Shown here: positions 19,884 through 39,137 of the stretch, one piece after another
Numbering within the stretch: the first letter of the stretch is position 1
How the letters are laid out: every line of letters begins with the position of its first letter
NCBI GenBank assembly: GCA_018267965.1
Contig: JAFDXK010000001.1
Span: 682,001 to 746,000, forward strand
Direction: 5' to 3'
DNA from: Bacteroidota bacterium
Lineage (GTDB): Bacteria; Bacteroidota; Bacteroidia; Chitinophagales; Chitinophagaceae
DNA length: 64,000 nucleotides
Made by a program: the position numbers and the translations under genes
The notes under the pieces: generated by a model
Database searches by the model: none
What the model saw: the letters and a program-made list of their open reading frames with translations, nothing else
Told to the model about the DNA's origin: nothing

Positions 19884-20660
19884 CTACTGTTGTGGTATCA
19901 ATTCACGATGTGTAATAAAATCTCCTTGCTTGCTTAAGTAGCTAAATAGCTTGTCAAGTTTGTTTATCAATCTGTCGTTGTCTACACGTTTTACCATTTT
20001 TGGTAAGTTGTATGGTGACAGGTTGGTAAACTCCCACGGATGCACATAGAAAACAATATAGCCATCATGGTTCAATATCCGTTTGCAGAGCATTTGATAA
20101 AACCATAGCGGGAAATTTTTAAGCGATAACCAGAATATGGGTATCCTTAAAACAGGTGTTACACTTGCGGGCAATTCCCATGTATGTTTATTATTGAATA
20201 GCGTACGTGGCTTATCGAAGTTATTGTAGCGACCCGGTAGCCAGGTGGGGTGCAGGGATGAATCGTATGTATATCCCGCAGCCTTTACATCTTCACTACT
20301 AATATCACTCATGCGCGGCATACGAATGCCGGCTATCTCTTGCCCGCAAATTTCATTTAATACTTTTCTCGAAGTCGCAAGGTCTTCAGTCTTAAAAGAG
20401 TTATGATAATATGTGTGTGAAGCTATTTCGTGTTTTTCGGATAATGCCCTTATATGTTGTGGGTAATGCGAAGCCCAAAATGCAGTAGTAAATATGGTAC
20501 AACGAACATTATGTTTATCCAATAAGGCTTCAAGTTTTTTTAAACCCTCTAAACTGGTTTCCAGTTTTTGTTTCAGGGGCACTTGTTCACCATACTCTTC
20601 AGGAATATCAAACTCTTCCAGGTCTATACTGAATAATATCTTTTTTGAATTGTATTTCAT
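19884..20660 (-). CDS. Polysaccharide deacetylase family protein
   Basis: A 258-residue NodB-like deacetylase, cytosolic since no signal is present. Motif 1 reads SIDLEEFD near residue 11 (the DxE variant), motif 2 HEIASHTYYHN (about 78-88) with the two metal histidines, and later GIRMPRMSD, the arginine motif, and FYVHPWEF with the C-terminal histidine. Such enzymes remove N-acetyl groups from glycans during cell-envelope polysaccharide synthesis. Its ATG lies 53 bases inside the upstream GT2 gene; no internal start keeps motif 1, so the overlap is real and implies coupling in one operon. Confidence 0.85.
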   Translation of the reverse strand: MKYNSKKILFSIDLEEFDIPEEYGEQVPLKQKLETSLEGLKKLEALLDKHNVRCTIFTTAFWASHYPQHIRALSEKHEIASHTYYHNSFKTEDLATSRKVLNEICGQEIAGIRMPRMSDISSEDVKAAGYTYDSSLHPTWLPGRYNNFDKPRTLFNNKHTWELPASVTPVLRIPIFWLSLKNFPLWFYQMLCKRILNHDGYIVFYVHPWEFTNLSPYNLPKMVKRVDNDRLINKLDKLFSYLSKQGDFITHRELIPQQ

Positions 20661-21375
20661 TCTTTTTCCTGAAAACGATTTTCAACAGGTTTTTGAATTC
20701 TTGTCGCATTACTTTCATTCCAAAATCACTTAAATGTGTTTCGTGTGTAATGCTTACACTCAGTGCTTTAATGTTGATGTCCTTTATCTTACTGGCAAGT
20801 AGTATAAACTCCATGTCAAATAAAAAGCGATCAATAGTAGTTTGTAAAAATAAAGCTTTACCATATTTATTGAAGCCCTTAATACCTGCCTGGGTATCTT
20901 CAACCGGTAATCGTAGTATTTGTTTGTTAAAAACTATTAATCCTTTAGAAACCAGCTTGCGTTTGAAAGGTAACGCGTTGAAATAATTACCTTTTCTGCG
21001 GCAACCTGTTGTGATATCTGTACCTTTTGTCAGTTCATTGTACATATCTCTTACGACTTGTAGTCCGAACGGGAAATCATAATCTGAATAGATACAATAA
21101 TCTGTAGACGCTTTTTTTACACCTTCCCGAAGTGCATAGCCTTTTCCCCTGTTTTGCGTATAGCTCACAATCTCAATATGAGGTATGGAAACCTTCAGGT
21201 AGTTCAGTTCTTGCTCTCCAAAATTTTTGGATGAGCCATCATTGACAATAACTAAGTTGATGAGTTCTTTATCGCCTTTAAAATAACCTGCCACCAGTTT
21301 GTTGAATTTATCAACAAACTTTTTTTCCCAGCCGGCTGATGGGTTATAAAATGGTATAACAAGGTCAAAAATCAT
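20608..21375 (-). CDS. Family 2 glycosyltransferase (dolichyl-phosphate-glucose type)
   Basis: A 255-residue inverting GT-A enzyme. It starts FDLVIPFYNP, has VIVNDGSS near residue 44, NRGKGYALREGVKKA (about 75-89) and SDYDFPFG, and the acceptor-region pattern EDTQAGIKGF, which is typical of ALG5/DPM-like transferases that load a sugar onto a polyprenyl phosphate. No transmembrane C-terminus. Overlaps the GT87 gene by 4 bases (ATGA) and the deacetylase gene by 53, so the three form one translation-coupled unit: lipid-linked sugar donor, membrane transferase and deacetylase. Confidence 0.88.
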   Translation of the reverse strand: MIFDLVIPFYNPSAGWEKKFVDKFNKLVAGYFKGDKELINLVIVNDGSSKNFGEQELNYLKVSIPHIEIVSYTQNRGKGYALREGVKKASTDYCIYSDYDFPFGLQVVRDMYNELTKGTDITTGCRRKGNYFNALPFKRKLVSKGLIVFNKQILRLPVEDTQAGIKGFNKYGKALFLQTTIDRFLFDMEFILLASKIKDINIKALSVSITHETHLSDFGMKVMRQEFKNLLKIVFRKKNEIQFKKDIIQYRPGRV

Positions 21376-22511
21376 CTTTGTGTAAAAACCTGTTTCTTAT
21401 TATTAATTACTGTCTGTATACTATAGGCAAACATATCGCCTATAATTAAGAGGCACAAAATACTTTTTAAATAATATTCGTAACGGATTTTATCAAAAAC
21501 CCTGATTATATCTGTAGGGATTAGTGTAGAAATTAATAATGTTGCCCAAAATAATGTTGTTGATACCATATTCTTTGGCCTGCTTAAATGCCATATGATA
21601 ACCCCTGCAATAGCAATAATATAAGTTGCAGGTTCTGATGCACGATTAAAAACAATTACCCATATCAATAGAAATGCTACGATATGTTCTCTCTTCCTGT
21701 CTTTAATGATATACTGTAATGCGATAAACGAAACCAGCGTTGCTAAAGCCAACAGTAGTACATAGGTTTCTGCAATGTTGATATGCAACTTTGTAAACAA
21801 ACCATATATCGAATAGCTTTCCTTTATCGTATCACTAGATATGATGTGTAGCCAGTCTGTATAATATTGTATGACCATTTGAGGTGAAATAAAGAATAGC
21901 ATCAGGGCATTTAGCACAACAAACCACAGTATACTATATAATACTGCCTTATACCAGTTCTTATAATACAGACAAATAATACCTATAATACCCCCATAAC
22001 CTTTTACCAAAAAACTGAGTACGGCAAACATAGCTGCCCAAAATGGCTTACCTCTGTCCATCATTATCCACGTAGCGAGCATAAAAGCCAGAAACAAAGG
22101 GTTGGTCTGTGTATGCGTAATGTTGTTGAGCATATCAAACAACATCAGCAGTATCAGCACTTTGTTTTTCTCATCATTCATCGGCAAGTTCTTATACACA
22201 ATGAAACATACGAGCATGGTAAAACTCATCCATGCCAGCATGCCTGCCTTAATAGGCAGTAGCGCAAACGGCATGAAAAAAACCGGGAAAGTTGGGTTGT
22301 AATAAAACAGGTCGAAATACTCGTTGGGATATTCAATATACAGGGGCAATCCTTTTAGAAAGTGATGGGTAGACGCCCTGAAAATTTTAAAATTATTGAT
22401 TTGATTGAATTCGAGCAGCTGCCAATATCCAAAAGCCAAAGCCAGCACATATAATATGGCTAAGATTTTATACTGAAGAATAAAAGACTGTATGCGCTTG
22501 AATGTTTGCAC
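21372..22511 (-). CDS. GT87-like (DUF2029) polytopic membrane glycosyltransferase
   Basis: A 379-residue inner-membrane protein with about ten hydrophobic segments. The family (DUF2029/GT87, as in mycobacterial mannosyltransferases PimE and others) transfers sugars from polyprenyl-phosphate donors outside the membrane. The first loop contains FRASTHHFLKGLPLYIEYP, where a conserved acidic residue is normally sought, then YYNPTFPVFFMPFALLP, a recognisable family block. First gene of the operon that continues with GT2 and deacetylase genes. A good -7 box lies 20 bases upstream. Confidence 0.78.
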   Translation of the reverse strand: MQTFKRIQSFILQYKILAILYVLALAFGYWQLLEFNQINNFKIFRASTHHFLKGLPLYIEYPNEYFDLFYYNPTFPVFFMPFALLPIKAGMLAWMSFTMLVCFIVYKNLPMNDEKNKVLILLMLFDMLNNITHTQTNPLFLAFMLATWIMMDRGKPFWAAMFAVLSFLVKGYGGIIGIICLYYKNWYKAVLYSILWFVVLNALMLFFISPQMVIQYYTDWLHIISSDTIKESYSIYGLFTKLHINIAETYVLLLALATLVSFIALQYIIKDRKREHIVAFLLIWVIVFNRASEPATYIIAIAGVIIWHLSRPKNMVSTTLFWATLLISTLIPTDIIRVFDKIRYEYYLKSILCLLIIGDMFAYSIQTVINNKKQVFTQR

Positions 22512-33536: not shown

Positions 33537-33671
33537 AATGCCAAATTCTGTTTCCAGCATAAATATGGTGATAATTGTGTGAAAATGCAAACGCCCGACA
33601 CTTAATTTGATGAATGTTGCGGATTGGCGGGTGTTTTGATAATTTGTACCCATATTGAAAAGAAGCATCGC

Positions 33672-36077
33672 ATGACCCTCTATGAAAAACTACTGCAAGC
33701 TCGTACCGAAGAAGATGTAAAGGACATATATATTAAAGCCCTCGGGTTAAAAAGCTATTCCAAGAACCTGATTGATATTCAGACCAAAGAAATATGGTTT
33801 GAAGCAAAAGACGGGTACAAGCATTCTACCTATGCCATGTTCACGCAACTGTTGCATTATGTGCAGCAGGCATTGAACAAAGGCGAAGAAGTGCCACCGT
33901 TTTTAGTAGTGATGGATACACAAAAGGCTGCCATCATGAAAACTGCCGATGTGATACCCTTCCTGAAAAAGAAAACCATTAAATGGGGCAAAAGCGCCAG
34001 CGGCTACACGCAAGAGGCCCTGGACGAAGTGTCTGCATACATTGGCACCTACTTTGTTTCTTTTAAAATAGAAACGCATCAGGAAGAGTTTATTGAAACC
34101 ATAAAGAATGCCATAAAAAGTGGCGACATCATCCGCACACAGATAACGCCCGATAACCTGAAACAGGTATTTGACAAATGGGTGCAAATGATAGGGCGCG
34201 AGATAAAAGATGTAGCAGAAGAAGATTATGCCCTGCTGTTTTTTGCCGATATTATGAGCGACGGCACCATAAGTACCCACCGCGACCTGCCTGCCGAGCT
34301 ACTGCATAAGAATAACCAACCTGTGTTTTCATTAAGTGGCAAGCTGTATGAACTGGGCAACCGTGAGGGATACCGCCAGTTTTGGCAGATATACCACCGC
34401 CCGCCTGCACAGGAATACCGCAACTACCTGCTGGAACGCCGCGACAGCCTGATACCTATTGACGAACGTAGCTTTAAAGGGGCATATTATACGCCCCTGC
34501 ATGTGGTAGATAAAGCCTATGACAAACTTGCCGAAACACTGGGCAAGAACTGGCAGCGTGAATATATAGTATGGGATATGTGCTGTGGCGTTGGCAACCT
34601 GGAGGTGAAACACAGCAACCCGCGCAACATATACATGAGTACGCTTGACCAGGCAGATGTAGATGTGATGCACGCTACACGAACCTGTGTAGCAGCTACC
34701 CGTTTTCAGTACGACTACCTGAATGATGATATAGCCGATGACGGCAGCATAGACTATAACCTAACTAACAAAGTACCTCAGAGCCTGCGCGATGCCATTG
34801 CAGCGGGCAAGAAGATATTAGTGCTAATTAACCCGCCGTATGCAGAGGCCGCGAACAATGACAATACAGTATTAGGTGATGATAATTCTGAGAACAAAAA
34901 AGGTGTTTCAAAAACTCGAGTGGCTACTTTAATGGACGACCAAGGATATGCTGCGAGAGAACTCTTTGTTCAGTTTATTGTAAGAATTGCAAAGGAAATC
35001 CCTACTGCTACAATAGCAGTTTTTAGTAAAATGAAATATGTCAACGCACCGAACTTTGAAATATTCAGACAAGAATGGAATGCTAAATATCTAGGTGGTT
35101 TTGTAGTACATAGTAAAGCATTTGACGGTCTGAAAGGTGATTTCCCAATAGGCTTTTTATTATGGAAAACAAATCAAAATGCAGACGTCAAGACTCCTAT
35201 AACTGAAATAACAGTCGAAGTGCTAGACAAGAAGGCCACACCAATCGGTGAAAAGCAATTTTACAATCTGCCTAATGAATATCTTTTAAGTAATTGGATT
35301 AAGCGAGTAAAAGCAAATAAGATGGATGCAATTCCTCTAAAGAATGCTATTTCACCTACTACAAATACAAAAGATGTCAGAGGCACAAAATGGGCGGATG
35401 GAGCTATTGCTAGTATGATTTGTAAAGGCTCTGATATGCAAAATGCAGCTACTCAAACTGCATTATTATCATCAGGGTATTGCAGTGCTGGTGGCTTCTT
35501 TGTAACAATAGAAAACATTTGGCAAAGTGCGATAGTTTATACTGTTAGGCTTGTTACAAAGAAGACATGGCTTAATGACCGCGACCAGTTTTTGCAACCC
35601 ACTGTTCCATTAACAGATGAATTCAAAAATGATTGTTTGGTATGGATGTTGTTTAACGGCAGTAACCTGACAGCAGGTGCGGATGGCTTAGAATGGAATA
35701 ATAAAACATGGAGCCTTGTCAATCATTTTATACCCTATACCGAAACAGAAGTAGGTGCACCTGAACGATTTGAAAGTGATTTTATGGTGCAGTATATGGC
35801 AGATAAAATATTCAGCACAGAGGCTAAGGCTGTACTTGAAGCAGGCAAGGCTCTGTGGCAGTCTTATTTTGCGCATATCGATGTACGAAGCGTACGGGAT
35901 GAATTTAAATTAAACCGCCCGGATGTGGGTTGGTATCAAATAAGGAATACGCTAAAGGCAAGAAATGCCAGCGGCGATTTTCCGCCTGTCAGTTTCAAGC
36001 AGTTTGAAGATGCGTACAAAGCACTAACCGAAAAACTGCAACCACAAGTATATGAATTTGGATTTTTAAGGAGTTAA
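33672..36077 (+). CDS. Fused restriction-modification enzyme (type IIG-like, N6-adenine methylase)
   Basis: An 801-residue protein that appears to join nuclease, methylase and DNA recognition. Near the N-terminus IDIQTKEIWFEAK (34-46) has the Asp-x8-Glu-x-Lys spacing of a PD-(D/E)xK nuclease. A helical linker leads to the methylase: KGAYYTP (269-275), SAM-binding motif I DMCCGVGN (302-309), and catalytic NPPY (387-390), the N6-adenine class (Eco57I-like). The C-terminal third should carry the target-recognition domain. Base composition drops sharply just after NPPY (near 34,855) and recovers near 35,640, as if this part was exchanged. Start at 33672 fits LYEKLLQARTEEDVKDIY; an upstream TTG frame adds unlikely residues. 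A PLD nuclease gene follows after 9 bases. Confidence 0.82.
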   Translation: MTLYEKLLQARTEEDVKDIYIKALGLKSYSKNLIDIQTKEIWFEAKDGYKHSTYAMFTQLLHYVQQALNKGEEVPPFLVVMDTQKAAIMKTADVIPFLKKKTIKWGKSASGYTQEALDEVSAYIGTYFVSFKIETHQEEFIETIKNAIKSGDIIRTQITPDNLKQVFDKWVQMIGREIKDVAEEDYALLFFADIMSDGTISTHRDLPAELLHKNNQPVFSLSGKLYELGNREGYRQFWQIYHRPPAQEYRNYLLERRDSLIPIDERSFKGAYYTPLHVVDKAYDKLAETLGKNWQREYIVWDMCCGVGNLEVKHSNPRNIYMSTLDQADVDVMHATRTCVAATRFQYDYLNDDIADDGSIDYNLTNKVPQSLRDAIAAGKKILVLINPPYAEAANNDNTVLGDDNSENKKGVSKTRVATLMDDQGYAARELFVQFIVRIAKEIPTATIAVFSKMKYVNAPNFEIFRQEWNAKYLGGFVVHSKAFDGLKGDFPIGFLLWKTNQNADVKTPITEITVEVLDKKATPIGEKQFYNLPNEYLLSNWIKRVKANKMDAIPLKNAISPTTNTKDVRGTKWADGAIASMICKGSDMQNAATQTALLSSGYCSAGGFFVTIENIWQSAIVYTVRLVTKKTWLNDRDQFLQPTVPLTDEFKNDCLVWMLFNGSNLTAGADGLEWNNKTWSLVNHFIPYTETEVGAPERFESDFMVQYMADKIFSTEAKAVLEAGKALWQSYFAHIDVRSVRDEFKLNRPDVGWYQIRNTLKARNASGDFPPVSFKQFEDAYKALTEKLQPQVYEFGFLRS

Positions 36078-36086
36078 AAGGAAATA

Positions 36087-36755
36087 ATGGCAAAGTTTTA
36101 TCAAGGTACCCATTTAAGTGCCAAACTGGAAAGGCTTGTAGAAAGAGCAGATGATTTTTTATACATCGTATCACCGTTTATAAAACTGCACCGCCGATTC
36201 AGGGATGAGCTGGACAAGAAAAGAAATAATCCCAAGCTTGAGATCACGGTATTGTTTGGTAAGAATGAACATGATTTAAGCCGCAGTCTTCAGGAAGATG
36301 ATTTCGACTACCTAGCATCTTTCCCTAACATAAAAATAGTATACGATAAAGACCTTCATGCTAAATATTATGCAAGTGAAGACTCTGCATTGATAACATC
36401 GCTAAACCTGCACGAGTTTTCGCAGAACAATAATATAGAGGCAGGTGTAATGCTTATGCCCGATGAAGAAGCCTATAAAGAATCGCTGGATTATTTTAAG
36501 AACATAATCAGCAAGGGCGATGTTTTATTTGAGAATAAGCCGGGCTTAAAGAATACAGCCAGTAACCAGAACAGGCAAACAGGTTACTGCATCCGTACCG
36601 GTGAGCCCATTCCTTTCAATCCAGAAAGGCCCATGAGTTATAACGCATACCAGGTTTGGGCACAGTTCGGAGACTGGGATTACCCTGAGAAGTTCTGCCA
36701 CAAAACAGGCAGGCCATCCAATGGCAGAACCAGTATGCGCAAGCCTGTGTTATGA
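36087..36755 (+). CDS. PLD-type nuclease-like protein with two C-x2-T-G motifs
   Basis: A 222-residue protein 9 bases after the restriction enzyme, surely co-transcribed. Residues 1-145 form a single phospholipase-D fold with one HKD-like motif: DLHAKYYASED (His91, Lys93, Asp99) then ITSLNLHEF (Ser105, Asn107) and Glu118. Single-HKD proteins such as BfiI and Nuc act as dimers and cut DNA without metal. The C-terminal 65 residues carry two matched motifs, YCIRTGEPIPFN and FCHKTGRPSNG, around a Trp/Tyr-rich centre (YNAYQVWAQFGDWDYPE), possibly a small metal-binding or nucleic-acid-binding element. It may be a second effector of the restriction system. Confidence 0.72.
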   Translation: MAKFYQGTHLSAKLERLVERADDFLYIVSPFIKLHRRFRDELDKKRNNPKLEITVLFGKNEHDLSRSLQEDDFDYLASFPNIKIVYDKDLHAKYYASEDSALITSLNLHEFSQNNNIEAGVMLMPDEEAYKESLDYFKNIISKGDVLFENKPGLKNTASNQNRQTGYCIRTGEPIPFNPERPMSYNAYQVWAQFGDWDYPEKFCHKTGRPSNGRTSMRKPVL

Positions 36756-37852: not shown

Positions 37853-38248
37853 TTAAGAATGGCTTTGGGTGCGGGTTGCAGCCCGTTGCAGGACATATAA
37901 AATAAAGTAGGGTGCCGGGCTGCAGAAAAACTGCCTTACGACACTTACACTATCAAGGAATTCGAGCGATAAGCCACCTTTTTTCCATTCATAAAGACCA
38001 ATAATCCCGATGATTACTGTAACAGTACTATAAAGTATCAGCCAGGCCTTTCTGAACCAGTGGATGGGATTAGTGCGCCAGCCCCAATATCCTACGGGTA
38101 TAAACATGGCTAATATGATGATGTGAGCTATTTGCCGTTGAAAGGGAGTATGATAATGGGCTAACCCCTCTGTATAGTATTGATTATCAATCCATGATAG
38201 CAAGGTTACAGCTATGAATGAAAGCCAAAAAACTAATTTGGGTTTCAT
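37853..38248 (-). CDS. Exosortase-F-associated membrane protein
   Basis: A 131-residue inner-membrane protein with four hydrophobic segments (LVFWLSFIAVTLLSW, IIILAMFIPVGYWGW, AWLILYSTVTVIIGIIGLY, APYFILYVLQ). Size, topology and position right after an XrtF-type exosortase, with a 4-base ATGA overlap (38245-38248), match the exosortase-F-associated family; the sequence itself has few fixed motifs (YYxEGLxHYHTPFQRQ resembles members). Third gene of the exosortase cassette. Its role, perhaps in stabilising or delivering substrate to XrtF, is unknown. Confidence 0.72.
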   Translation of the reverse strand: MKPKLVFWLSFIAVTLLSWIDNQYYTEGLAHYHTPFQRQIAHIIILAMFIPVGYWGWRTNPIHWFRKAWLILYSTVTVIIGIIGLYEWKKGGLSLEFLDSVSVVRQFFCSPAPYFILYVLQRAATRTQSHS

Positions 38249-38772
38249 TTTTCTGCCGGTTTTTTGGTGTATAAAACCCAGCCAGCAAATGCCACAGCGT
38301 AGATTATGAGTTTAAACGCATAATGATGGGCAAAATCGAAGAGGAAAGAGCCGTGATATAACATGACAGCCAGCCCCGATGTTCGGAGGATATTGAGGGC
38401 AAATATGACCAGTACTCCGCCTATGGCAAATGACAGCATTCGAGTAATAGTAGTAGGGATACATAGAAGGAAGCCTACATACAACACAAAAACTTCAAGC
38501 CCGTTGCATTGCGGGGCAATAATAACGGTCTGGATACCATCGAGATATATAGTGTGATTGTCTTGTGCTACTGTTTTATAGAAAAGGGATAAAAACCTGG
38601 CTGTGCAATCTTCTGTAAATGTGGTGAGCCAGTTATCTGGAATGCCTTTTGGTTGAAGAATGAAAACATAGAGTAGTTTCCATCCTGCTAATAGTAATAA
38701 ACCCCTGATAACGAAGGGTTTAATATTGGAGAAAGTAATACGAGGATTTTTTTCTTCTTGTATTGTTGACAT
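38245..38772 (-). CDS. xrtF: Exosortase family protein XrtF
   Basis: A 175-residue polytopic transpeptidase-like protein that should cut a C-terminal sorting signal at the membrane surface and move the protein on. The catalytic triad is present: Cys89 in IIAPQCNGLEVF, Arg130 in ALNILRTSGLA, and His149 or His150 in FDFAHHYAFK, each next to a membrane segment as in the exosortase/archaeosortase fold. Shorter than proteobacterial EpsH proteins, as is normal for XrtF. It lies 22 bases after a small protein with a matching sorting signal and overlaps the associated membrane-protein gene. No exopolysaccharide locus is attached. Confidence 0.85.
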   Translation of the reverse strand: MSTIQEEKNPRITFSNIKPFVIRGLLLLAGWKLLYVFILQPKGIPDNWLTTFTEDCTARFLSLFYKTVAQDNHTIYLDGIQTVIIAPQCNGLEVFVLYVGFLLCIPTTITRMLSFAIGGVLVIFALNILRTSGLAVMLYHGSFLFDFAHHYAFKLIIYAVAFAGWVLYTKKPAEK

Positions 38773-38794
38773 TATTCGGAAAGACGTACGGCAA

Positions 38795-39061
38795 TTATTT
38801 CTCTTGCTGTTCGTTTTGTTTCTTGTCTTTTCTCATTCTTGCATAGCGTTTGCCGCCATAAGCAGCACCTGCCACTAAAAGCAGGCTCAATCCACCATCC
38901 AGTGGGGTAGAACTGTAACCGCAGTTGCATTGCTTGCCACAATAACAACAATAGTTACACCATGATTTATGTGGCCAACAACCTGCAAACGATGCTTTTG
39001 GGGCAGCCAATAAAAGAATGGAGAGTAAAGCGAAAACGGATATGTGTTTTATTTTGGTCAT
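38795..39061 (-). CDS. Cys-rich putative exosortase substrate with PLDGG sorting signal
   Basis: An 88-residue exported protein. Signal peptide at about 1-26 (LLSILLLAAPKASFA), then a short mature segment with seven cysteines between residues 28 and 47 (GCWPHKSWCNYCCYCGKQ and CNCG), then a tripartite C-terminus: PLDGG (53-57), hydrophobic LSLLLVAGAAYGG (58-70), and a basic tail KRYARMRKDKK. That layout is a PEP-CTERM-like signal of the PID-type seen with Bacteroidota exosortases. Only about 26 residues would remain after processing. It is the first gene of the XrtF cassette. Confidence 0.75.
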   Translation of the reverse strand: MTKIKHISVFALLSILLLAAPKASFAGCWPHKSWCNYCCYCGKQCNCGYSSTPLDGGLSLLLVAGAAYGGKRYARMRKDKKQNEQQEK

Positions 39062-39106
39062 ATTTTTTGTTTTAAATGAAATGGGCTCATCGAGATTACA
39101 ATATTA

Positions 39107-39137
39107 CAAATATGCGGCAGATTTATGATTTATCAAA
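39107..39137 (-). promoter_or_regulatory. Promoter of the exosortase cassette
   Basis: On the minus strand TTTG (39137-39134), exactly 19 bases, CATATTTG (39114-39107): one base off TAnnTTTG. The leader is about 40 bases. Confidence 0.6.

Follow-up and report, generated by a model that had tools for sequence, protein, structure and literature searches.

The closest described counterpart of the locus analyzed here is the XrtX/PID-CTERM system, for which NCBIfam holds models of the substrate (NF046080), the exosortase (NF046081) and an XrtX-associated membrane protein (NF046082). The likeness extends to the substrate, an XrtX-type exosortase and a third membrane protein, encoded in the same order; the differences are that our enzyme scores 119 bits against a cut-off of 170, the third protein has no NF046082 match, and the substrate is rich in cysteine. 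The order is the same in another genome (G101, locus L278), where substrate and enzyme both exceed their cut-offs and the third protein falls short (39.1 versus 75 bits). No literature on PID-CTERM or exosortase XrtX was found among open-licence papers, so an earlier description is possible.

Rhombosortase/GlyGly-CTERM pairs also place a sorting enzyme beside a single target; their enzyme is an unrelated rhomboid, and their targets are ordinary large proteins. One rhombosortase product has been deduced to carry a moiety with glycerophosphoethanolamine (PMC7468200). In Flavobacterium johnsoniae, too, a short Bacteroidota exosortase has its partner gene next to it (XrtF and the exosortase F system-associated protein, Fjoh_1448/1449); what XrtF targets is reported to be not yet known (PMC12188702). 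Archaeosortase A of Haloferax volcanii is of the same superfamily, with a tripartite C-terminal signal and a lipid-anchored product, but it is archaeal and its substrates include the S-layer glycoprotein, not mini-peptides (PMC7157517).

Removal of a C-terminal signal with amide coupling is also known in Bacteroidota from T9SS, whose cargo carries an amino-acid-modified sugar, PorU anchoring the cargo to the linking sugar; there, however, the signal of about 80 residues is removed at the cell surface, and neither an exosortase nor a mini-peptide is described for the system in the available text (PMC7468200). A similar sugar in exosortase systems, and chemistry shared with T9SS, is offered as speculation in the same source; an exosortase/T9SS pairing of the kind reported below is not described in the available parts of that source or of PMC10936215. 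Were it functional, the pairing of PID-CTERM with T9SS would connect two sorting systems treated apart in the available literature, save for this one speculation.

The cassette and its three proteins

The window (the whole stretch of DNA analyzed, 64,000 nucleotides) belongs to a genome of 3.74 Mb that is 99.99% complete (G000). It contains, on the minus strand at 37853-39061, a trio of genes placed and ordered as the earlier note described:

39107..39137, minus: candidate promoter of Bacteroidota type, TTTG-N19-CATATTTG, which departs from TTTG-N19-TANNTTTG by one mismatch
38795..39061, minus: gene for a PID-CTERM mini-protein of 88 aa, the proposed exosortase substrate (NF046080 match)
38906..38983, minus: Cys-rich central part of the mature peptide as predicted (88-aa gene, codons 27-52)
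38245..38772, minus: exosortase gene, 175 aa, closest to XrtX (NF046081 and TIGR04178 scores)
37853..38248, minus: gene for a helical membrane protein of 131 aa that occupies the place of the XrtX-associated membrane protein (NF046082) in the gene order, without a match to NF046082
37784..37814, minus: exact TTTG-N19-TACCTTTG in the gap from cassette to rpsL, a candidate promoter serving rpsL-rpsG separately

The first two genes are separated by 22 bases, and the second and third overlap by 4 bases. A cysteine desulfurase gene lies upstream of the cassette, and rpsL and rpsG lie downstream on the same strand (all named from their sequences); no polysaccharide genes touch it, as had been observed before. 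The trio had also been assigned one promoter. TTTG-N19-CATATTTG is indeed present at 39137-39107(-), one mismatch from what we take to be the Bacteroidota-type consensus, but promoter-like matches are no commoner in the window than in shuffles (18 seen versus 15.1 expected), so a single promoter is plausible by position only. Immediately ahead of rpsL, the exact site at 37814-37784(-) points to a start of their own for the downstream ribosomal genes.

The 88-aa protein exceeds the PID_CTERM cut-off (NF046080; 37.6 bits versus 26, residues 52-73) and ends, as claimed, in PLDGG followed by a hydrophobic stretch and then a basic tail. Its hydrophobic N-terminus carries a SFA cleavage-like site and gives a predicted signal peptide of about residues 1-26; cleavage at SFA|GC would leave 26 residues ahead of PLDGG (31 with PLDGG included), in agreement with the earlier figure of about 26. 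This 26-residue middle contains seven cysteines. Judged from its tail and position, the protein is very probably the substrate of the adjacent XrtX.

The 175-aa protein scores above the cut-offs of the exosortase superfamily model TIGR04178 (47.3 bits versus 23) and of Pfam Exosortase_EpsH (34 bits versus 25.7). The best specific family is XrtX (NF046081), at 119.4 bits and below the cut-off of 170; XrtY scores 50.0 bits and XrtF (TIGR04128) only 49.5 bits against a cut-off of 90. The name XrtF, under which the enzyme had first been reported, is therefore rejected, since the XrtX score is far ahead. By these scores the enzyme is XrtX-like, below certified XrtX membership; NF046081 is matched at E 1e-10 or better by all 17 sequences of an enzyme alignment made up of the window protein and 16 others, from 32 XrtX-type sequences.

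The residues previously listed for the enzyme (C89, R130, H149 and H150) are all present, although H149-H150 is not a fixed pair. Across 53 exosortases (the window protein and 52 of 60 profile hits, taken without a motif filter), N127 and R130 are retained in all 53 and C89 and H149 in 52 each, the one row lacking C89 being cut there. At position 150, 28 of the 53 have His and 22 have Asp, so only a single His of the two is general. The eight hits left out of this set scored poorly with the XrtX profile (E above 0.001), and six of them have long open frames; in an earlier alignment of 47 all four residues are invariant, but its members were picked by a pattern requiring them. Short exosortases can be divided at this position into HH and HD kinds (L278, L282, L288 and L290, together with the set of 53). 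An AlphaFold2 model of the enzyme has a mean pLDDT of 87.7; it gave nothing significant with Foldseek against the PDB (best E 1.1), and a sequence-profile search returned no solved relative (best E 0.23).

The 131-aa protein matched no family in NCBIfam and Pfam scans. NF046082 (cut-off 75 bits) found nothing in G000 at E<=1, while it matches proteins in two other genomes at 148 bits (G128) and 173 bits (G221). The sole feature common to these proteins and ours is an F..SP.P...LY motif near the C-terminus, and profile comparison gave a weak probability of 4.5% with one sequence and 10% with three; the alignment of third proteins took 21 of 25 candidates. The AlphaFold2 model (pLDDT 92.4) has five helices; Foldseek returned no significant PDB hit for it (best E 0.7). 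On sequence grounds, the cassette is thus a divergent member of the NCBIfam-named system.

Enzyme and substrate in related genomes

In G000, two PID-CTERM proteins exceed the cut-off and two exosortases are encoded, with one PID-CTERM gene beside each exosortase gene; a third PID-CTERM match (E 0.14) falls below the cut-off, and a profile built from genus PID-CTERM tails finds the same two genes and no more. The genome-wide search for further substrates that the earlier note had proposed thus yields one other PID-CTERM protein over the cut-off, next to the second exosortase, and the dedicated enzyme-substrate pair that it envisaged is supported. Both G000 pairs consist of one enzyme and one adjacent target, which is what defines a dedicated sorting system, a term taken from PMC3237569.

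The second cassette (contig C9, L006) begins with an 851-aa protein carrying a T9SS sorting tail, followed after 20 bases by a 63-aa PID-CTERM protein (predicted mature part QGPGFDDDVVDEVPLDGG) and, after a further gap of about 32 bases, by an exosortase that is XrtY-like (146.9 bits versus a cut-off of 160). No polysaccharide genes are recognizable there by eye. A T9SS gene thus adjoins the PID-CTERM gene in the second cassette and not in the window cassette.

An XrtX orthologue with at least 48% identity is found in 12 of 15 genomes of the genus, whose named GTDB relatives at these loci include Flavipsychrobacter sp. MAGs and Chitinophagaceae bacterium LGM1. The gene order is kept, which is the outcome of the comparison among relatives that the earlier note had set as a test: a PID-CTERM gene lies directly upstream of all 12 orthologues (one, at L187, cut by a contig end) and a third gene directly downstream of all 12 (including L192 and L193), with rpsL on the same stretch in 9 of the 12. 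One genus genome (G314) has a match for neither exosortase nor PID-CTERM. The mini-proteins at the 12 loci contain at least three cysteines before the motif in seven cases (for example, HSYWCGVYHGGCCNCGCGGGYAAPLDGG) and one or none in four; the remaining one is cut. Five loci (L184, L185, L186, L189 and L190) encode a tandem second mini-protein upstream of the exosortase, also Cys-rich, in which PLEGA replaces PLDGG; the NCBIfam PID model may overlook such proteins.

Exosortase and PID-CTERM co-occur on a wider scale. Among 247 Bacteroidota genomes, an exosortase is present in 42 of 42 PID-CTERM genomes versus 55 of 205 others (Fisher p about 1e-20, uncorrected for relatedness; the Fisher tests presuppose independent genomes and genes, an assumption that does not hold); in 60 genomes of the family the corresponding figures are 19 of 22 and 4 of 38. 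The three family genomes with PID-CTERM and no detected exosortase (G017, G024 and G046) are 96, 100 and 79% complete, and PID-CTERM is missing from 55 of the 97 exosortase genomes in the Bacteroidota set. Many genomes hold several PID-CTERM genes away from the exosortase (the maximum in the genus is 14 matches at E<=0.1, one of them weak, in G305), so that the one-to-one cassette represents one end of a range.

Miniature substrates and their T9SS neighbors

Nor does the locus stand alone in its arrangement: tiny PID-CTERM proteins prove to be the rule among those collected, and NCBIfam names all three families. In 102 of 104 distinct PID-CTERM proteins the mature segment, measured from cleavage to the end of PxDGG by a simple heuristic that errs long and so gives an upper bound, has a median of 21 residues; it is 35 residues or less in 85 of them, and the shortest payload is estimated at 13 residues. 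With miniature segments as the rule, the approximately 26 residues of the window protein are typical. All PID-CTERM open frames listed in the family and Bacteroidota genome searches are shorter than 185 codons with the exception of a 973-aa protein in G221 (L276 4983-7904, contig C1, minus), the only large PID-CTERM protein seen. Its own C-terminus is PID-like (PIDGEVWVLLAGG...); a Pfam scan found no domain in it, so it is unusable as a fusion argument.

Nineteen genus genes of the second cassette kind encode GPGFDDDV[VI]D[ED]VP[LI]DGG, in 17 DNA versions that specify four peptides; summed over pairs, the codon differences number 1074 synonymous versus 126 non-synonymous, the respective sites being 12.2 and 38.8, in a set that was chosen by motif and is thus biased to conservation, and whose pairs are not independent. 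The DNA has diverged and the peptide has not, which by this comparison indicates that the peptide is under selection. The T9SS partners of the same conserved peptide differ widely in length. An 87-aa PID-CTERM protein of G004 (L022/L153) has a likely lipoprotein signal, LLFS-C, which would imply processing at both ends.

Gln begins the mature part of 77 of the 104 PID-CTERM proteins by a simple pattern, and Lys occurs in only 16 mature segments; Bacteroidetes convert N-terminal Gln to pyroglutamate (PMC10653852). The N-terminus of the peptide or a lysine as acceptor for the T9SS sortase is disfavored on both counts.

In 60 stretches of 5 to 18 kb and the second G000 cassette, the gene upstream of PID-CTERM mostly encodes a large protein on the same strand. 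The T9SS type A sorting domain (TIGR04183) is found in 46 of 61 upstream neighbors versus 5 of 59 downstream neighbors (Fisher p 1e-14) and 6 of 140 other genes (1e-25), again with independence assumed. The NCBIfam scan covered the last 120 residues, and the other genes, of at least 200 aa, came from the same stretches (140 of 170 scanned). This first batch comprised 66 PID-CTERM genes in 61 stretches, mostly the best-scoring matches; one stretch (L159) has no PID frame by the rule used. It gave 62 upstream neighbors, one of which (L151, with an open 3' end) was dropped, while three PID-CTERM genes have no upstream gene in their stretch and one has another PID-CTERM gene there. Of 65 downstream neighbors, six were dropped: four because their 3' ends are open, and two because they had entered the count as the T9SS gene upstream of another PID-CTERM gene; with those two restored, the downstream count is 7 of 61.

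A second batch, fetched after the first result and consisting mostly of the next-best PID matches (2 of its 40 loci have no PID frame), gave TIGR04183 in 31 of 38 upstream neighbors. Upstream neighbors that are not T9SS by this model thus number 15 of 61 and 7 of 38 in the two batches, and three of the latter seven have a 'neighbor' frame of 70-101 aa that may be spurious. By a local model, at least one T9SS/PID-CTERM pair exists in 37 of the 46 genomes of these batches, and within the genus a T9SS gene precedes 20 of 22 PID-CTERM genes in 12 stretches that were chosen, not drawn at random, from PID-CTERM genes away from the window locus. Sixteen further stretches were viewed by eye and kept out of the T9SS counts.

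Genes with T9SS tails range from 16 to at least 150 per genome in six genomes. Their abundance is far from enough to explain the pairing, because G052 has 16 such matches, yet all four of its PID-CTERM genes follow one. In a Pfam scan of ten partner proteins, the T9SS tail model was passed by eight, one fell just below and one had no match; the other domains over cut-off were LTD, ice-binding-like and fn3, in one protein each. It is likely, given these counts, that PID-CTERM peptides are in general functionally linked with T9SS cargo. The PID-CTERM gene of the window is an exception to the pairing: its upstream neighbor is the cysteine desulfurase gene, and in the 12 genus genomes no T9SS gene was found beside this locus within 3-kb stretches.

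T9SS sorting domains of type A are numerous in G000, where 150 of 204 candidates were scored and all matched, giving at least 150. Six of the genus pairs counted above are crowded into about 30 kb of one genome (G305:C11:384500-415000, L292 and L293), where a near-identical peptide accompanies different T9SS partners.

Proposed role and alternatives

We consider it probable, from sequence and gene arrangement, that the cassette is a dedicated XrtX/PID-CTERM unit making a small, C-terminally processed peptide of a type that serves T9SS surface proteins across the family. The 88-aa protein would be exported by Sec and lose its signal peptide, with the C-terminal helix presumably keeping it in the inner membrane, where the Cys/Arg/His site of XrtX may cut at or near PLDGG. 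The new C-terminus would then be passed to an acceptor. Going by archaeosortase A, rhombosortase and the linking sugar of T9SS, this is probably a lipid or glycan that bears an amine; that the peptide is covalently transferred to a lipid or glycan in this way seems somewhat favored. The 131-aa membrane protein may assist the exosortase. This would yield a Cys-rich peptide, about 26-31 residues long, that is retained at the cell envelope.

Because across Bacteroidota the miniature genes mostly lie directly behind genes for T9SS-sorted proteins, such a peptide most likely serves, as a rule, a T9SS protein at the cell surface. The window cassette, which has no adjoining T9SS gene, would therefore act in trans or have a separate role that uses its cysteines. 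More tentatively, two sorting systems could cooperate: XrtX/XrtY would attach a mini-peptide through its C-terminus to a lipid or glycan of the envelope, and this conjugate would partner the T9SS protein encoded just upstream as anchor, dock or assembly tag. What the exosortase functionally delivers would then be the peptide and not a protein domain, with the Cys-rich peptides of the genus as its stand-alone version; we regard this fuller version as possible at best.

It is doubtful that the cassette is an ordinary extra copy of the curated NCBIfam system whose small substrate has no special meaning. NF046080, NF046081 and NF046082 do already name substrate, enzyme and associated protein, but these names carry no function, the open-licence literature gave no paper on PID-CTERM or exosortase XrtX, and the T9SS pairing is far above background.

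Coupling of the peptide to exopolysaccharide for the biofilm matrix, as proposed for PEP-CTERM proteins and independent of T9SS, is unlikely. XrtF and its partner are needed for biofilm formation and surface colonization in F. johnsoniae, but the same screen yielded T9SS genes too (PMC10936215), so this phenotype fails to separate a matrix role from a T9SS role. Sugar genes do accompany some of the family's exosortases: at L063 (G004:C1:722768), a short exosortase with no PID-CTERM nearby lies between glycosyltransferase-like and carbamoyltransferase-like genes (named from sequence only). Against this, no polysaccharide genes are recognizable by eye at the window locus or the second cassette, and T9SS cargo is the commonest upstream neighbor of PID-CTERM genes.

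Less likely still, the 88-aa protein could be a lipoprotein with an N-terminal lipid anchor, the exosortase only trimming its tail. FAG precedes Cys28, so that SFAG-C resembles a lipobox under the general lipobox rule, and one other PID-CTERM protein (L022) has a clear LFS-C site; however, Cys-rich relatives in the genus show A-H at this point and no Cys, and SFA suits signal peptidase I as well. That the functional product is instead the C-terminal part, a helix and basic tail which exosortase cleavage would set free as a membrane signal or regulator, is very improbable: the payload is indeed very short and the helix and tail are well conserved, but enzyme recognition alone would account for the latter, and the payload is conserved in the genus too.

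The targets of XrtF, and the biochemistry behind its colonization phenotype, are reported as unknown, and a locus with a related enzyme and one 88-aa target offers a simple system in which to catch both product and acceptor.

Two other gene groups of the window were named from sequence only. Polysaccharide-deacetylase-like, glycosyltransferase-like and multi-pass membrane-transferase-like genes occupy 19884-22511 on the minus strand, about 15 kb from the cassette. On the plus strand, 33624-36755 encodes an 817-aa restriction-modification methylase-like protein followed by a 222-aa phospholipase-D-like protein.
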